Virus record (IMG/VR): IMGVR_UViG_3300021475_000410
Location: 1-32,812 of that record
Strand: one strand, 5' to 3'
DNA from: a virus
Length of the DNA: 32,812 bases
Below the pieces are notes generated by a model. It saw only the letters and a program-made list of their open reading frames with translations, was not told where the DNA came from and made no database searches. Both the position numbers and the translations under genes were made by a program. Every line of letters starts with the position of its first letter. Position 1 is the first letter of the stretch. This document shows, piece after piece, positions 819-32,812 of this stretch.

Positions 819-834
819 TTACCCACGGGAGTAA
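819..834 (+). repeat. 16-bp palindrome, junction copy
   Basis: TTACCCACGGGAGTAA, directly after the hairpin at 797-818. Its GGGAG is the Shine-Dalgarno of the gene at 840. Confidence 0.85.
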
Positions 835-839
835 CGGCC

Positions 840-1139
840 ATGCCAAGCACATCCAAACCCCAAGCCCGTCTCATGGCCGCTGCCGCCCACACCAAGGGCG
901 GGTTTGGCGGGGTGCCGCAGAGTGTCGGCAAGGAGTTCAACATGGCTGACAAAGGCAAGAAGTTTAATAAGGGCGGTGGTGTAGAAAGCTCTGCCCATCA
1001 GGCGTTCGAAAACAACAAGGCGGAAGCCTTGGTCTACCCCGGCCCGGCACAGGGGCTGAAGAAGGGCGGCGCGGTCACTGCGATCAGCAAGCCGGTCAAG
1101 CCTGCCACGGGCGGGTGGAAGCGCTGGGGACAGAAATGA
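840..1139 (+). CDS. Small basic phage protein
   Basis: A 99-residue basic protein starting MPSTSKPQARLMAAAAH and containing VPQSVGKEFNMADKGKKF, a pattern I recognise from small uncharacterised proteins in many tailed phages. It is rich in Lys and Gly with no membrane segment. The Shine-Dalgarno GGGAG (827-831) is part of the palindromic repeat at 819-834, 8 nt before the ATG. Its TGA overlaps the ATG of the endolysin (ATGA), so the two are translationally coupled. Function unknown; a nucleic-acid-binding or virion-packaged role would fit the charge. Confidence 0.75.
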   Translation: MPSTSKPQARLMAAAAHTKGGFGGVPQSVGKEFNMADKGKKFNKGGGVESSAHQAFENNKAEALVYPGPAQGLKKGGAVTAISKPVKPATGGWKRWGQK

Positions 1140-1585
1140 CGGAGCTTACAGAACACTTCACGCTGGAAGAGATGACCGACAGCCAGACGGCGGCGCGCAT
1201 GGGCTTGAACAACGTGCCGCCAATGGGTAGTCCAGAGCGGGCAAACCTCAAACGCACTGCCGACGTGATGGAGCAGGTGCGCACCTTGCTTGGCGACAAG
1301 CCAGTGTTGATCTCTTCTGGCTATCGCAGTCCACAGGTAAACAAAGCGGTCGGCGGCAGCACGAGCAGCGCCCACATGAGCGGGCTGGCGGTTGACTTCT
1401 CCTGCCCCGGTTTCGGCACGCCAAAGCATATCTGCAAGCATCTGCACTCGCACATGAAGACGCTGGGCATCGACCAGTTGATCCACGAGTATGACACATG
1501 GGTGCATCTGGGCCTAACTCAGGGCGCACCGCGCCACATGGCCTTGACCATCGACACTAAAGGTACGCGCAACGGCTTTGCTTGA
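1136..1585 (+). CDS. Endolysin, M15-family D-Ala-D-Ala carboxypeptidase-like
   Basis: A 149-residue single-domain protein matching the zinc peptidase M15 fold (the M15_3 or VanX-like type common in phage endolysins). Visible motifs are SGYRSPQVNKAVGGS, then SAHMSGLAVDF with the zinc His and Asp, and near the C-terminus IHEYDTWVHLGL with the catalytic Glu and third zinc His. It should cleave peptidoglycan peptide cross-links at lysis. The ATG at 1136 overlaps the preceding stop as ATGA; an in-frame GTG at 1115 would add seven residues. There is no signal peptide, so it needs a holin for export; a candidate follows at once. Confidence 0.9.
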   Translation: MTELTEHFTLEEMTDSQTAARMGLNNVPPMGSPERANLKRTADVMEQVRTLLGDKPVLISSGYRSPQVNKAVGGSTSSAHMSGLAVDFSCPGFGTPKHICKHLHSHMKTLGIDQLIHEYDTWVHLGLTQGAPRHMALTIDTKGTRNGFA

Positions 1586-1603
1586 AGGGTAACGTGTTGG
1601 GAG

Positions 1604-1849
1604 ATGAGCGACGATGACAAGCGAACTTACAAACAGTTGTTGCTCATTGCCGTATTGGCGATCTTCGGCATCCTATACCTCGTGGCGTTCGGCACACTGT
1701 ATACCGTCTATGGGTGCTTCGACCTTTACCTTCACAAGATCTTACCGATCCCAGAGGGTTGCGGCAACGGCAACATGTCGAAGTTCGTGCTTGAGTTTGT
1801 AGGGATCACAGTGGGTGTGCTGGGGGCGATTCGGTTGCTGGGGCAGTAA
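1604..1849 (+). CDS. Holin-like small membrane protein
   Basis: An 81-residue protein with a charged N-terminus (MSDDDKRTYK), a first hydrophobic segment at about residues 12-34, a short loop with two Cys (YGCFDLY, EGCGNGN) and a second hydrophobic segment at about 60-79. Two membrane spans directly after an M15 endolysin fit a class II-type holin, which would permeabilise the inner membrane. The assignment rests on topology and position only. Its TAA stop (1847-1849) is the first three bases of the palindrome at 1847-1862. Confidence 0.6.
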   Translation: MSDDDKRTYKQLLLIAVLAIFGILYLVAFGTLYTVYGCFDLYLHKILPIPEGCGNGNMSKFVLEFVGITVGVLGAIRLLGQ

Positions 1850-30935: not shown

Positions 30936-30938
30936 TTT

Positions 30939-30971
30939 TTAACCACCCTCTTGACAGTGATATGACGGCAT
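30939..30971 (-). CDS. Ten-residue leader peptide MPSYHCQEGG
   Basis: An ATG at 30971 with a perfect AGGAGG 6 nt upstream (30983-30978) opens ten codons and stops at a TAA (30941-30939), 3 nt before the ATG of 30405-30935. The strength of this ribosome site and the tight spacing suggest translational coupling or attenuation of the downstream gene. Confidence 0.55.
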   Translation of the reverse strand: MPSYHCQEGG

Positions 30972-30979
30972 GGTATACC
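30951..30979 (+). promoter_or_regulatory. Rightward promoter of the portal gene
   Basis: TTGACA (30951-30956), a 17-bp spacer and TATACC (30974-30979), about 70 bp before the portal ATG. It overlaps the leader peptide and its ribosome site on the other strand, so the two divergent signals occupy the same DNA. Confidence 0.7.
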
Positions 30980-31052
30980 TCCTATGTTCACGTGGCAAGT
31001 GACTTTGCGCAGGCGCGTCAGCTTGCGCAACGCGCGATAAGGGACAGATACA

Positions 31053-32812
31053 ATGGCGGCGCTGCCGGGCGCACCGGCGTTGCGCGTCGTAGGGCGGGAC
31101 GGCACAGCGCAACAGCAGCAAGTCATGGACGCGGCACGCGCACAGGCGTACGCGGCTCCTCCAGATGCGCCGCCCCAAGGGCTGGCGGGATTCGTAACCG
31201 ATCAATATACCTTGATGCGCCGACACCGTGATACGGTGGGACGCGGTTGGAGCGATAGGCTGCTCGCTGCGCTTCGTGCGTTTGATGGCGTGTATGAACC
31301 GAACATCATCGAAGAGATCAAACGTTTCGGCGGGTCGAACGTTTACGCGCGTACTATTGCGATGAAGTGCAGGGGGACCAGTTCCCTCTTACGCGATGTG
31401 TATCTAGGCACCGACCGCCCGTGGGGTATAGAGCCTTCCCCTGACCCGGACGTTCCCGACGAGATCGTGCAAGCGATAGGCGAGCATATTTCGGGTGAAG
31501 TGACGCAGGCGGTGCAGGCGCATTTTCAAGCGGCGCAAGCCCAGCAAGCGCACGCGATAGGCACGGCAGCAGCCCATGCATACGGAGCCGCTACAGGTCA
31601 ACATCCTAGTTTCGTTGACGCTAGTATACCCTCGCACCAGAGCGGCCCATCTCAAGGCATGCATACGGGTGCTGTACCTCCGGGCATACCTCCACCTCCC
31701 GGTCAAGGTGCGGGTCTTCCTCCCCCTCCCCCGCCTCCACCTCTACCCGATCCCTCCGCGATAAGACAGCGCTACGAAGACATGATGGAGGACGCGCGCG
31801 ATCTCGCCAAGCGTCACGCCTCTGACCAAGCAAAAGTGGCCGAAGACAAGTTGGAGGAAAAACTCGCCCAAGGCGGGTTCTATACCGCGCTGGCTGAGTT
31901 TTTGGTGGACCTGCCGTTGTTCCCCTATGCGGTGATCAAAGGCCCTACCGTCCGCATCAAGACGCAGGTCAAGTGGACGAAAGACGTAGCGCCGTGGTCA
32001 GGGACTCCTCAAATTCCCCCGCCTCCCCAATCTCCACCCAACATGCAGGGGCCGCAGGGTAACTCACTTACACCCTCCCCGCTTACTCAAGGGAGTAACC
32101 TTCCCGGCACGCCTCCTCAAACTCCCCCCAAGCAGCCCCAGATCGCCAAGCCTGTCGTTCAAGACGTGCCGATGCTGTGCTGGGAGCGGGTATCCCCTTT
32201 CGATATTTATTGGACCCCCGGCGTAGCGGATATAGCCGATGCCAACGTTGTTCAGCGCTCGCGGCTCACGAGAGCCGAAATTAACGATCTTCTCGATCTA
32301 CCGGGGTTCATCACCGATGAAGTGCGGGCAGTGCTGGACGAGTACGGCAGAGGCGGGCTGGTTGACAACTGGGACCAGACCGACGCCGAGCGCGCCATAC
32401 TGGAAAGCCGTGAAGACCCAAGGTTTAACCAATCCGGGTTGATCGCTTGCTTGGAGTTTCAGGGTAATGCTCAGGGAAGATATCTTCTCGATCTTGGCAT
32501 GGACGCTAGCCTTATACCTGATCCTCTCCGCGATTATTTTATTAATGCTTGGCTTATTGGACGGCATATCATCAAAGTGCAGCTTGCCCCTTCGCCGCGC
32601 AAGCGGCACCAATACTACGCTACCAGTTTCGAGAAGGTTCCGGGCAATCCTTGCGGCAATGGCCTGCCGGATTTGCTGGCGGATATTTCGAGCGTGATGA
32701 ACGCGACCTTGCGGTCGTTGGTCAACAATCTGAGTATTAGTTCCGGCCCGCAAGCCGTGATCAACGACGACCGTCTCTCGGATGGCGAAGACGGCGAGCA
32801 GATGTACCCGTG
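31053..32812 (+). CDS. Portal protein, 3' end beyond the window
   Basis: The frame is open from the ATG at 31053 (GGGA 8 nt upstream) to the window end, giving 586 residues. WSDRLLAALRAFDGVYEPNI, TIAMKCRGTSSLLRDVYLG and WGIEPSP mark a podovirus-type portal N-terminus. Later WERVSPFDIYWTPGV, FEKVPGNPCGNGLPDLLADI and SVMNATLRSLVNNL match the stem/crown region of such portals. Two disordered inserts rich in Pro, Gln and His lie at about residues 155-240 and 310-370, the first with runs of PPPPP. It forms the dodecameric ring through which TerL packages DNA. A palindrome encodes LTQGSN in the second insert. Confidence 0.75.
   Translation, partial: MAALPGAPALRVVGRDGTAQQQQVMDAARAQAYAAPPDAPPQGLAGFVTDQYTLMRRHRDTVGRGWSDRLLAALRAFDGVYEPNIIEEIKRFGGSNVYARTIAMKCRGTSSLLRDVYLGTDRPWGIEPSPDPDVPDEIVQAIGEHISGEVTQAVQAHFQAAQAQQAHAIGTAAAHAYGAATGQHPSFVDASIPSHQSGPSQGMHTGAVPPGIPPPPGQGAGLPPPPPPPPLPDPSAIRQRYEDMMEDARDLAKRHASDQAKVAEDKLEEKLAQGGFYTALAEFLVDLPLFPYAVIKGPTVRIKTQVKWTKDVAPWSGTPQIPPPPQSPPNMQGPQGNSLTPSPLTQGSNLPGTPPQTPPKQPQIAKPVVQDVPMLCWERVSPFDIYWTPGVADIADANVVQRSRLTRAEINDLLDLPGFITDEVRAVLDEYGRGGLVDNWDQTDAERAILESREDPRFNQSGLIACLEFQGNAQGRYLLDLGMDASLIPDPLRDYFINAWLIGRHIIKVQLAPSPRKRHQYYATSFEKVPGNPCGNGLPDLLADISSVMNATLRSLVNNLSISSGPQAVINDDRLSDGEDGEQMYP
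32083..32098. repeat. 16-bp palindrome, intragenic
   Basis: TTACTCAAGGGAGTAA; encodes LTQGSN in the second disordered insert of the portal. Confidence 0.8.

Follow-up and report, generated by a model that had tools for sequence, protein, structure and literature searches.

The IMG/VR virus record IMGVR_UViG_3300021475_000410 raises the question of what reads a short palindrome, TTACTC-N4-GAGTAA, that recurs about once per kilobase along a phage genome. The record is a single one of 32,812 bases without end repeats, and its full length is called the window here. We favor, with about even confidence in the picture taken whole, the explanation that the palindromes are operators of a phage-encoded DNA-binding protein, similar in principle to the stoperators of mycobacteriophages, and that their likeliest reader is a small winged-helix protein encoded at 12792-13106. 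The case is strong that the sites are real, selected, palindromic, and family-wide, and it is highly probable that some protein binds them.

A palindrome family in the window and its relatives

A scan of the window yielded 7 exact copies, 34 with at most one mismatch, 48 with at most two, and 53 with at most three, whereas 200 dinucleotide-preserving shuffles of the window gave means of 0, 0.01, 0.56, and 6.3 and maxima of 0, 1, 4, and 17, respectively. The excess described in the original prediction is thus real, also against shuffled sequence of equal composition, although its count of 47 copies becomes 48 at two mismatches. When center lengths of 0 to 11 were compared at one mismatch or fewer, only the 4-nt center was enriched (34 copies, with 1 at a center of 5 and 0 elsewhere); three odd-center variants had been claimed, but at two mismatches or fewer there is one N3 form (5247) and one N5 form (10546). 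Over the 96 half-sites, positions 3, 4, and 6 are nearly fixed (A in 95, C in 96, and C in 96), while position 2 (T in 65, A in 19, C in 12) and position 5 (T in 78, C in 18) vary. The arms of a site form on average 4.9 of 6 complementary pairs, and the center reads ACGT in 5 of the 48 sites.

The sites are also found where the surrounding DNA has diverged. Two contigs, G004 (99.9% identity over 24.6 kb) and G001 (99.9% over 8.4 kb), represent practically the same phage as the window; G003 and G002 are about 85% identical to it, and G005 about 73%. At two mismatches or fewer, whole records hold 67 palindromes in 65,878 bases (G003), 67 in 64,144 bases (G005), 49 in 48.7 kb (G004), 33 in 24.6 kb (G002), and 17 in 16.6 kb (G001), with 0 to 2 matches per record for a reversed-pattern control. 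Forty of the 48 window sites could be fully aligned with G003 and 29 with G005, and the 8 and 19 unaligned or gapped sites are excluded from the percentages that follow. Of the aligned sites, 35 of 40 and 23 of 29 are retained at two mismatches or fewer, 14 and 12 of the retained ones with an altered center. Identity to G003 is 95.2% in the arms, 85.6% in the center, and 85.0% in the flanks, against a mean of 85.8% and a maximum of 92.5% in 2,000 sets of random 16-mers; for G005 the values are 86.5%, 75.0%, and 71.6%, against a mean of 76.3% and a maximum of 86.5%, so that the best random set equals the arm value there. The proposal that the sites are dispersed and conserved by position in related phages is therefore borne out, with aligned arms exceeding centers, flanks, and random 16-mers.

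More distant relatives share a replication core rather than the exact motif. The core of the window (polymerase, helicase, exonuclease, a primase-like 981-aa protein, an ATPase, and a 467-aa protein) is common to Rhizobium phage RHph_TM3_14A and in part to Pseudomonas phage KPP25; the window itself had no match in a near-DNA search of a phage collection or, at E 1e-20, in a plasmid search. With the window's pattern at two mismatches or fewer, we found 16 sites in G006, 6 each in G007 and G009, 0 in G008, 3 in RHph_TM3_14A, 1 in KPP25, and 0 to 2 in G010 to G013. In de novo palindrome scans, RHph_TM3_14A and G009 showed TTACCT-4 with GTTACC-6, and G006 to G008 showed N3 forms; the scan of KPP25 gave no palindrome of the TTAC type. 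RHph_TM3_14A carries 41 N4 and 18 N3 sites when up to 2 mismatches in 14 positions are allowed; sets of 40 shuffles gave 0.10 and 0.12, respectively. Among the matches listed in a scan of viral contigs for GTTACCT-N4-AGGTAAC, most were single sites, and they do not enter the counts given here. The preferred inner length of TTAC..GTAA is 7 and/or 8 in all but one of 36 genomes or loci, with 0 to 4 at each other length; the exception, L179, has one site. Because a genome or locus entered this set by carrying the motif or the winged-helix protein, 35 of 36 is no prevalence figure.

Bases +5 and +6 differ by lineage: T,C in the window, C,T in RHph_TM3_14A, T,T in L149, C,G in L159, G035, and G036, and C,C in L181 and L190. 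Both arms change jointly between lineages while the TTAC/GTAA core stays fixed. Substitutions that keep the symmetry, which had been described for the window, are rare within it (1 of 14 two-mismatch sites, at 25148), but this co-change between lineages upholds the idea at the larger scale. Spread by a transposon or other insertion was set aside, as the arms co-change and the flanks are unrelated. Such lineage-specific drift next to the core points to a binder encoded by the phage, which we consider very likely.

The relatives with a known host come from Rhizobium and Bradyrhizobium, and one could envision a host protein as the reader. We regard this as quite unlikely, given that the bases beside the core vary between phage lineages and that a contig of Bradyrhizobium sp. 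139 has 16 sites in its 24-kb phage part and 0 in the adjoining 76 kb; the latter also bears on site density in the host chromosome, a possible refutation named in the original prediction. This contig, which starts inside the phage, is probably an integrated relative: the phage replication half ends near 23 kb, a 576-aa protein containing serine-recombinase domains comes next, and the open reading frames (ORFs) beyond it read as chromosomal genes, by inspection of the ORFs alone. The large serine recombinase at this junction (L359 3435-5165) was not found in the 16 other genomes searched. In another Bradyrhizobium strain, the related phage is on a separate contig.

Placement of the sites and their form as DNA

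The window sites, from the scan at two mismatches or fewer, are as follows; being palindromes, they have no strand assigned.

819..834: palindromic site
1847..1862: palindromic site
2589..2604: palindromic site
3547..3562: palindromic site, close to a start codon by the mechanical test given below
3797..3812: palindromic site
6304..6319: palindromic site within the 981-aa primase-like gene
6664..6679: palindromic site within the 981-aa primase-like gene
7649..7664: palindromic site
8311..8326: palindromic site
9117..9132: palindromic site
9788..9803: palindromic site within the helicase gene
11572..11587: palindromic site within the exonuclease gene
12358..12373: palindromic site
12792..12807: palindromic site overlapping the 3'-terminal codons of the candidate binder gene, holding AGGAG for the start of the next gene
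13864..13879: palindromic site within the DNA polymerase gene
14435..14450: palindromic site within the DNA polymerase gene
15085..15100: palindromic site with AGGAG, DNA polymerase ATG 1 nt downstream
16427..16442: palindromic site with AGGAG, start codon downstream
16777..16792: palindromic site close to a start codon
17286..17301: palindromic site
17607..17622: palindromic site, start codon downstream
17968..17983: palindromic site with AGGAG, start codon downstream
18698..18713: palindromic site
19047..19062: palindromic site with AGGAG
19226..19241: palindromic site with AGGAG
20249..20264: palindromic site within the 467-aa gene
20632..20647: palindromic site, ATG of the 467-aa gene 2 nt downstream
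20851..20866: palindromic site, start codon downstream
21453..21468: exact palindromic site within the ATPase gene, exact aligned copy in G003 and G005
22341..22356: palindromic site, ATPase ATG 7 nt downstream
22719..22734: palindromic site, start codon downstream
23262..23277: palindromic site, start codon downstream
24084..24099: palindromic site
24283..24298: palindromic site
25148..25163: palindromic site, the sole symmetric double substitution
25638..25653: palindromic site, start codon downstream
26251..26266: exact palindromic site
26691..26706: palindromic site in control DNA
26874..26889: exact palindromic site in control DNA
26924..26939, 26945..26960, 26966..26981: array of three exact copies of TTACTCACGTGAGTAA in intergenic control DNA
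27297..27312: palindromic site directly upstream of promoter-like TTGACA-17-TATGGT
27546..27561: palindromic site
27738..27753: palindromic site 23 nt upstream of promoter-like TTGACA-18-TATAAT
28286..28301: palindromic site
30474..30489: palindromic site
32083..32098: exact palindromic site, exact aligned copy in G003 and G005

By a mechanical test, a Shine-Dalgarno-like arm 1 to 10 nt ahead of an ORF start, 21 of the 48 sites are start-proximal, a count that has no random control, and several sites read TAA..AGGAG. This would fit extended Shine-Dalgarno or stop-codon modules and nothing more, with TAACTCAGGAGAGTAA-like strings selected for translation. We give that idea minimal weight: the remaining sites are intragenic or in control DNA, constraint acts on both arms, even the one without a ribosome role, and 34 of the 59 sites in RHph_TM3_14A are intragenic. 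In that phage, random placement would put 51.6 sites within genes, so that genes are depleted of them; 10 sites lie 0 to 12 nt ahead of an annotated start, compared to 1.1 by random placement, and 15 in other noncoding places, compared to 6.3.

The sites could also be envisioned as RNA hairpins, such as short-looped stems of a regulatory element or terminator; the 15- and 16-bp forms would both be compatible with loops of 3 to 5 nt. In the sense strand, G-U pairs do not exceed A-C pairs at imperfect positions (10 and 10 in the early operons of the window; 18 and 19 in RHph_TM3_14A). There is thus no pull to RNA pairing, consistent with a DNA element rather than an RNA one. Exact copies form the array in control DNA, with three starts exactly 21 bp apart, and inner lengths are restricted to 7 and 8, and we consider hairpins very improbable. 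In G002, a close relative, the array position is taken by two copies with a 39-bp spacing.

Promoter-like matches in the window numbered 4, against 2.2 expected, and two sites stand directly upstream of promoter-like sequences. One of these promoters is a perfect sigma-70-type match, TTGACA-18-TATAAT, at 27777-27806 on the plus strand.

Sites fall on average about 960 to 980 bases apart in G003, G005, and RHph_TM3_14A. The coefficient of variation of the spacing is 0.71 in G003, 0.66 in G005, and 0.78 in the window, against a random 5 to 95% range of 0.81 to 1.18; spacing is more even than random in G003 and G005, with the window borderline. The main rival to transcription control starts from this regularity: a nucleoid or packaging protein of the phage may use the same sites mainly for genome organization, folding, protecting, or segregating the DNA and hardly affecting transcription directly. 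Consistent with this, sites extend over early and late regions and into genes, the exact form TTACTCACGTGAGTAA shares a TCACGTGA core with parS, and TrmBL2, an archaeal chromatin protein, is among the fold neighbors of the winged-helix protein. We nevertheless find this unlikely as the main role. The bias to gene starts and noncoding DNA in RHph_TM3_14A is strong, the array lies in a control region, and the early half of G003 is twice as dense (45 sites in the first 30 kb, 22 in the remainder). ParB itself was rejected as the binder: the ParB_N domain (PF02195) was found in 0 of 26 records, in a search whose control was positive in 10 of 14 genomes, and the TCACGTGA center is rare in the window.

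The winged-helix protein as candidate binder

The original prediction named three proteins as candidate binders, of which one is favored by the evidence.

12792..13106, minus strand: candidate binder, a 104-aa winged-helix protein (OmpR/PhoB type, no receiver domain), directly downstream of the DNA polymerase gene

This protein is winged helix, syntenic, and associated with the motif. The two helix-turn-helix proteins also named, at 15939-16424 and 16440-16832, have homologues only in G003 and G005 among 14 other genomes and leave the wider family unexplained. In most carriers, the homologue of the 104-aa protein directly follows the polymerase gene; it is elsewhere in G035, G036, G043, and G044. 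Homologues were aligned from 31 genomes or loci. From a 27-sequence alignment, the structure was predicted with a pLDDT of 88 and a pTM of 0.80 (pLDDT 64 without an alignment), with helices at 28-39 and 50-70. The model has the winged-helix fold, and its VIA list is full of winged-helix regulators: 2d1h (Z 8.2), TrmBL2 (Z 7.0), the OmpR/PhoB homologue 1kgs (Z 6.8, root mean square deviation 2.9, 77 aligned), and the T4 MotA activation domain (Z 6.7). The best viral Foldseek match has an E of 0.0014, and a PDB profile search gave 2m1b at E 0.0048. Over 16 records, Trans_reg_C exceeds the Pfam cutoff only in the relatives G035 and G036; it is below the cutoff in G043, G044, and the window's protein, and 11 of the 16 have no match. 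Like Trans_reg_C proteins, the candidate has the fold and a C-terminal motif; unlike the usual OmpR/PhoB proteins, it has no receiver domain, and the window copy is below the Pfam cutoff.

Presence of the protein and of the sites goes together. Among 101 polymerase-bearing loci of at least 8 kb, after removal of four duplicate loci, 27 had protein and sites, 1 the protein alone, 6 sites alone, and 67 neither. Searches of the whole records then placed L177 and L180 with the loci having protein and sites, and L170 and L171 with those having the protein alone, for a final 29, 3, 4, and 65. Sites are thus present in 29 of 32 loci with a homologue, compared to 4 of 69 without (Fisher P = 1e-17, phylogeny ignored); most of the 69 were seen only up to 22 kb, so some may carry the gene elsewhere. 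One locus scored as neither, L010 of G009, has 18 exact core sites in its whole record. On the polymerase tree, the protein trait and the site trait are both clustered. We consider it probable that the 104-aa protein is the binder in the window's own lineage.

Several observations weigh against this reading. Conservation of the arms is partly coding and Shine-Dalgarno constraint, both of which are included in the identity values above. OmpR/PhoB domains usually bind direct repeats, not palindromes. Z values of 6 to 8 can reflect a common arrangement, and Foldseek with the 104-aa model gave no PDB match at E of 0.001 or below. On long contigs, exact core sites occur in G009 (18 in 63.9 kb), G029 (17 in 54.1 kb), and G034 (50 in 61.3 kb), in all three of which no homologue was detected; the short contigs G028 and G030 have 10 and 4 sites without a detectable homologue. 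Conversely, G044 and L179 have the protein but only 2 sites and 1 site. In a Mantel comparison of 28 genomes (3 with fewer than 8 sites having been dropped), motif distance correlated better with the polymerase tree (r = 0.55) than with the winged-helix protein (r = 0.34), and the partial correlation of motif and protein given the polymerase was -0.27; beyond what phylogeny explains, motif and protein show no covariation, although the short, diverged protein may be saturated in this comparison. A phylogenetic pair test had only 2 pairs on supported branches (1.4 on average in the same direction, 0 in the opposite) and thus no power. Finally, none of 15 records searched had a tyrosine integrase, and of 16 searched for a resolvase domain only G034 had one, which lends no support to a role as lysogeny repressor in the window's phage. 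In RHph_TM3_14A (MN988472.1), EVB41_076 (L089 27240-30323) is labeled a putative integrase and is really a homologue of the 981-aa primase-like protein; an integrase domain search of that record found none.

These exceptions lend some weight to another phage protein as the binder, replaced or too diverged to detect in some lineages, with the winged-helix gene as a passenger of the same clade. The contigs with sites and no homologue, the closer match of motif to polymerase tree, and the different dispersed palindromes of sister lineages without the winged-helix protein all fit this possibility, which we regard as somewhat less likely than not. The association of sites with the winged-helix protein across loci is against it; in the genomes compared, beyond the universal replication genes, only one other protein family, a 61-aa leader-like peptide also present in G009, has such a distribution. 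This peptide (26278-26463, minus strand) has a motif near YRKVGGLRFVRIGRLGFSF and is conserved in G003, G005, G006, G008, G009, and RHph_TM3_14A. It was tried as the binder because of its location and wide conservation and rejected, no DNA-binding features being seen. A 183-aa protein of RHph_TM3_14A with two helix-turn-helix domains (MN988472.1 24216-24767; L089 9217-9768) was likewise rejected, as the compared genomes have no homologue. In G034, a search of gene content and small ORFs for an alternative binder found none that stood out; this genome encodes a 206-aa resolvase/invertase-like protein (L346 16302-16922).

The sister lineages, which share the polymerase family (L124 to L129, comprising G014, G015, and G016; L353, which is G031; and L163), have dispersed palindromes of their own with other sequences. 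GTTAGC-6-GCTAAC occurs 20 times at one mismatch or fewer in G014 (13 exact; 0.15 in shuffles), CTAACA-1-TGTTAG 20 times in G015 (0.15), TTAGGG-5-CCCTAA 10 times in G016 (0), TTGTTC-4-GAACAA 22 times at two mismatches or fewer in G031 (0.65), and TTGATC-4-GATCAA 18 times in L163 (0.5); because the half-sites were derived from the same sequences, the comparison with shuffles is somewhat flattering. A winged-helix homologue was searched for and not found in G014, G015, and G031 to G033. L193 was not confirmed as a further lineage (1 site at one mismatch or fewer), and many other relatives searched for dispersed palindrome sets showed none.

Stoperators and the control of phage genomes

We imagine the palindromes as operators in double-stranded DNA. 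Their reader would be encoded by the phage and probably dimeric, most likely the small OmpR/PhoB-type winged-helix protein, and would occupy sites genome-wide and most densely in the early, replication half. Transcription might be controlled by covering of promoters, by stopping RNA polymerase within operons and at gene junctions, or by both, and where a site precedes a gene, one arm could serve also as its Shine-Dalgarno sequence. Transcription control is, on balance, a likely main role. The arrangement would be a palindromic counterpart to the stoperator principle. ParB/parS, dispersed Noc, SlmA, and P1 C1 sites are likewise short, mostly palindromic, and scattered across a replicon; their sequences differ from those here.

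The stoperator parallel drawn in the original prediction is apt insofar as the sites are dispersed and conserved across a phage genome. The stoperators of L5-like (Cluster A) mycobacteriophages are 13-bp, asymmetric, mostly intergenic sites in one orientation, about 24 per genome, bound by a monomeric two-domain repressor (PMC5712189, PMC6550527, PMC9283540). As here, one short site is present in many copies genome-wide, at promoters and gene junctions, and the consensus varies among relatives and tracks genome distance (PMC5712189, PMC6550527, PMC9283540). Unlike them, the sites here are 16-bp palindromes rather than asymmetric 13-bp elements of one orientation, number 48 to 67 per record, and are often intragenic, and the protein proposed to bind them consists of one winged helix. 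An L5-type system also implies a temperate phage whose immunity repressor binds the sites and halts elongation. The SPBRE of Bacillus prophage SPbeta, a 15-bp motif derived from 9 ChAP-seq peaks and reported for intergenic regions, was also noticed from sequence first and later assigned to a phage protein, the repressor MrpR, which has a tyrosine-recombinase fold (PMC10516654). The SAS of Cluster K mycobacteriophages are 13 bp and asymmetric, with 11 to 19 copies at translation starts; like the sites here, SAS/ESAS have AGGAG in the ribosome-binding position, and part are joined by inverted repeats (PMC3203893). The palindromes, in contrast to SAS, are not confined to translation starts and occur also within genes and control DNA. 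A literature search, from whose coverage subscription journals were mostly absent, found no report of these palindromes for these phages, and PMC12451628 had no match for RHph_TM names.

If this is true, genome-wide control by dispersed operators would extend beyond a few actinobacterial and Bacillus temperate phages and be a theme of a large environmental phage group, in palindromic form and with about one site per kilobase. A reading would also be gained for a common, unannotated small phage protein. Because the sites drift between lineages, one could test directly how a single protein coevolves with tens of them. A possible bench model is the cultured RHph_TM3_14A, which has 59 sites and encodes a winged-helix homologue, EVB41_062. 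More speculatively, a large, mostly uncultured phage group with one replication core may rewire a genome-wide operator code in each lineage, every one with tens of copies of its own palindrome and with small swapped or respecified phage proteins as readers. The receiverless OmpR/PhoB-type winged helix would read the TTAC lineages, whose palindrome has drifting bases and two spacings, with TTGTTC, TTGATC, GTTAGC, CTAACA, and TTAGGG types in the sisters. Phages, many of them without a recognizable integrase, would then have a palindromic stoperator code read by a dimer.

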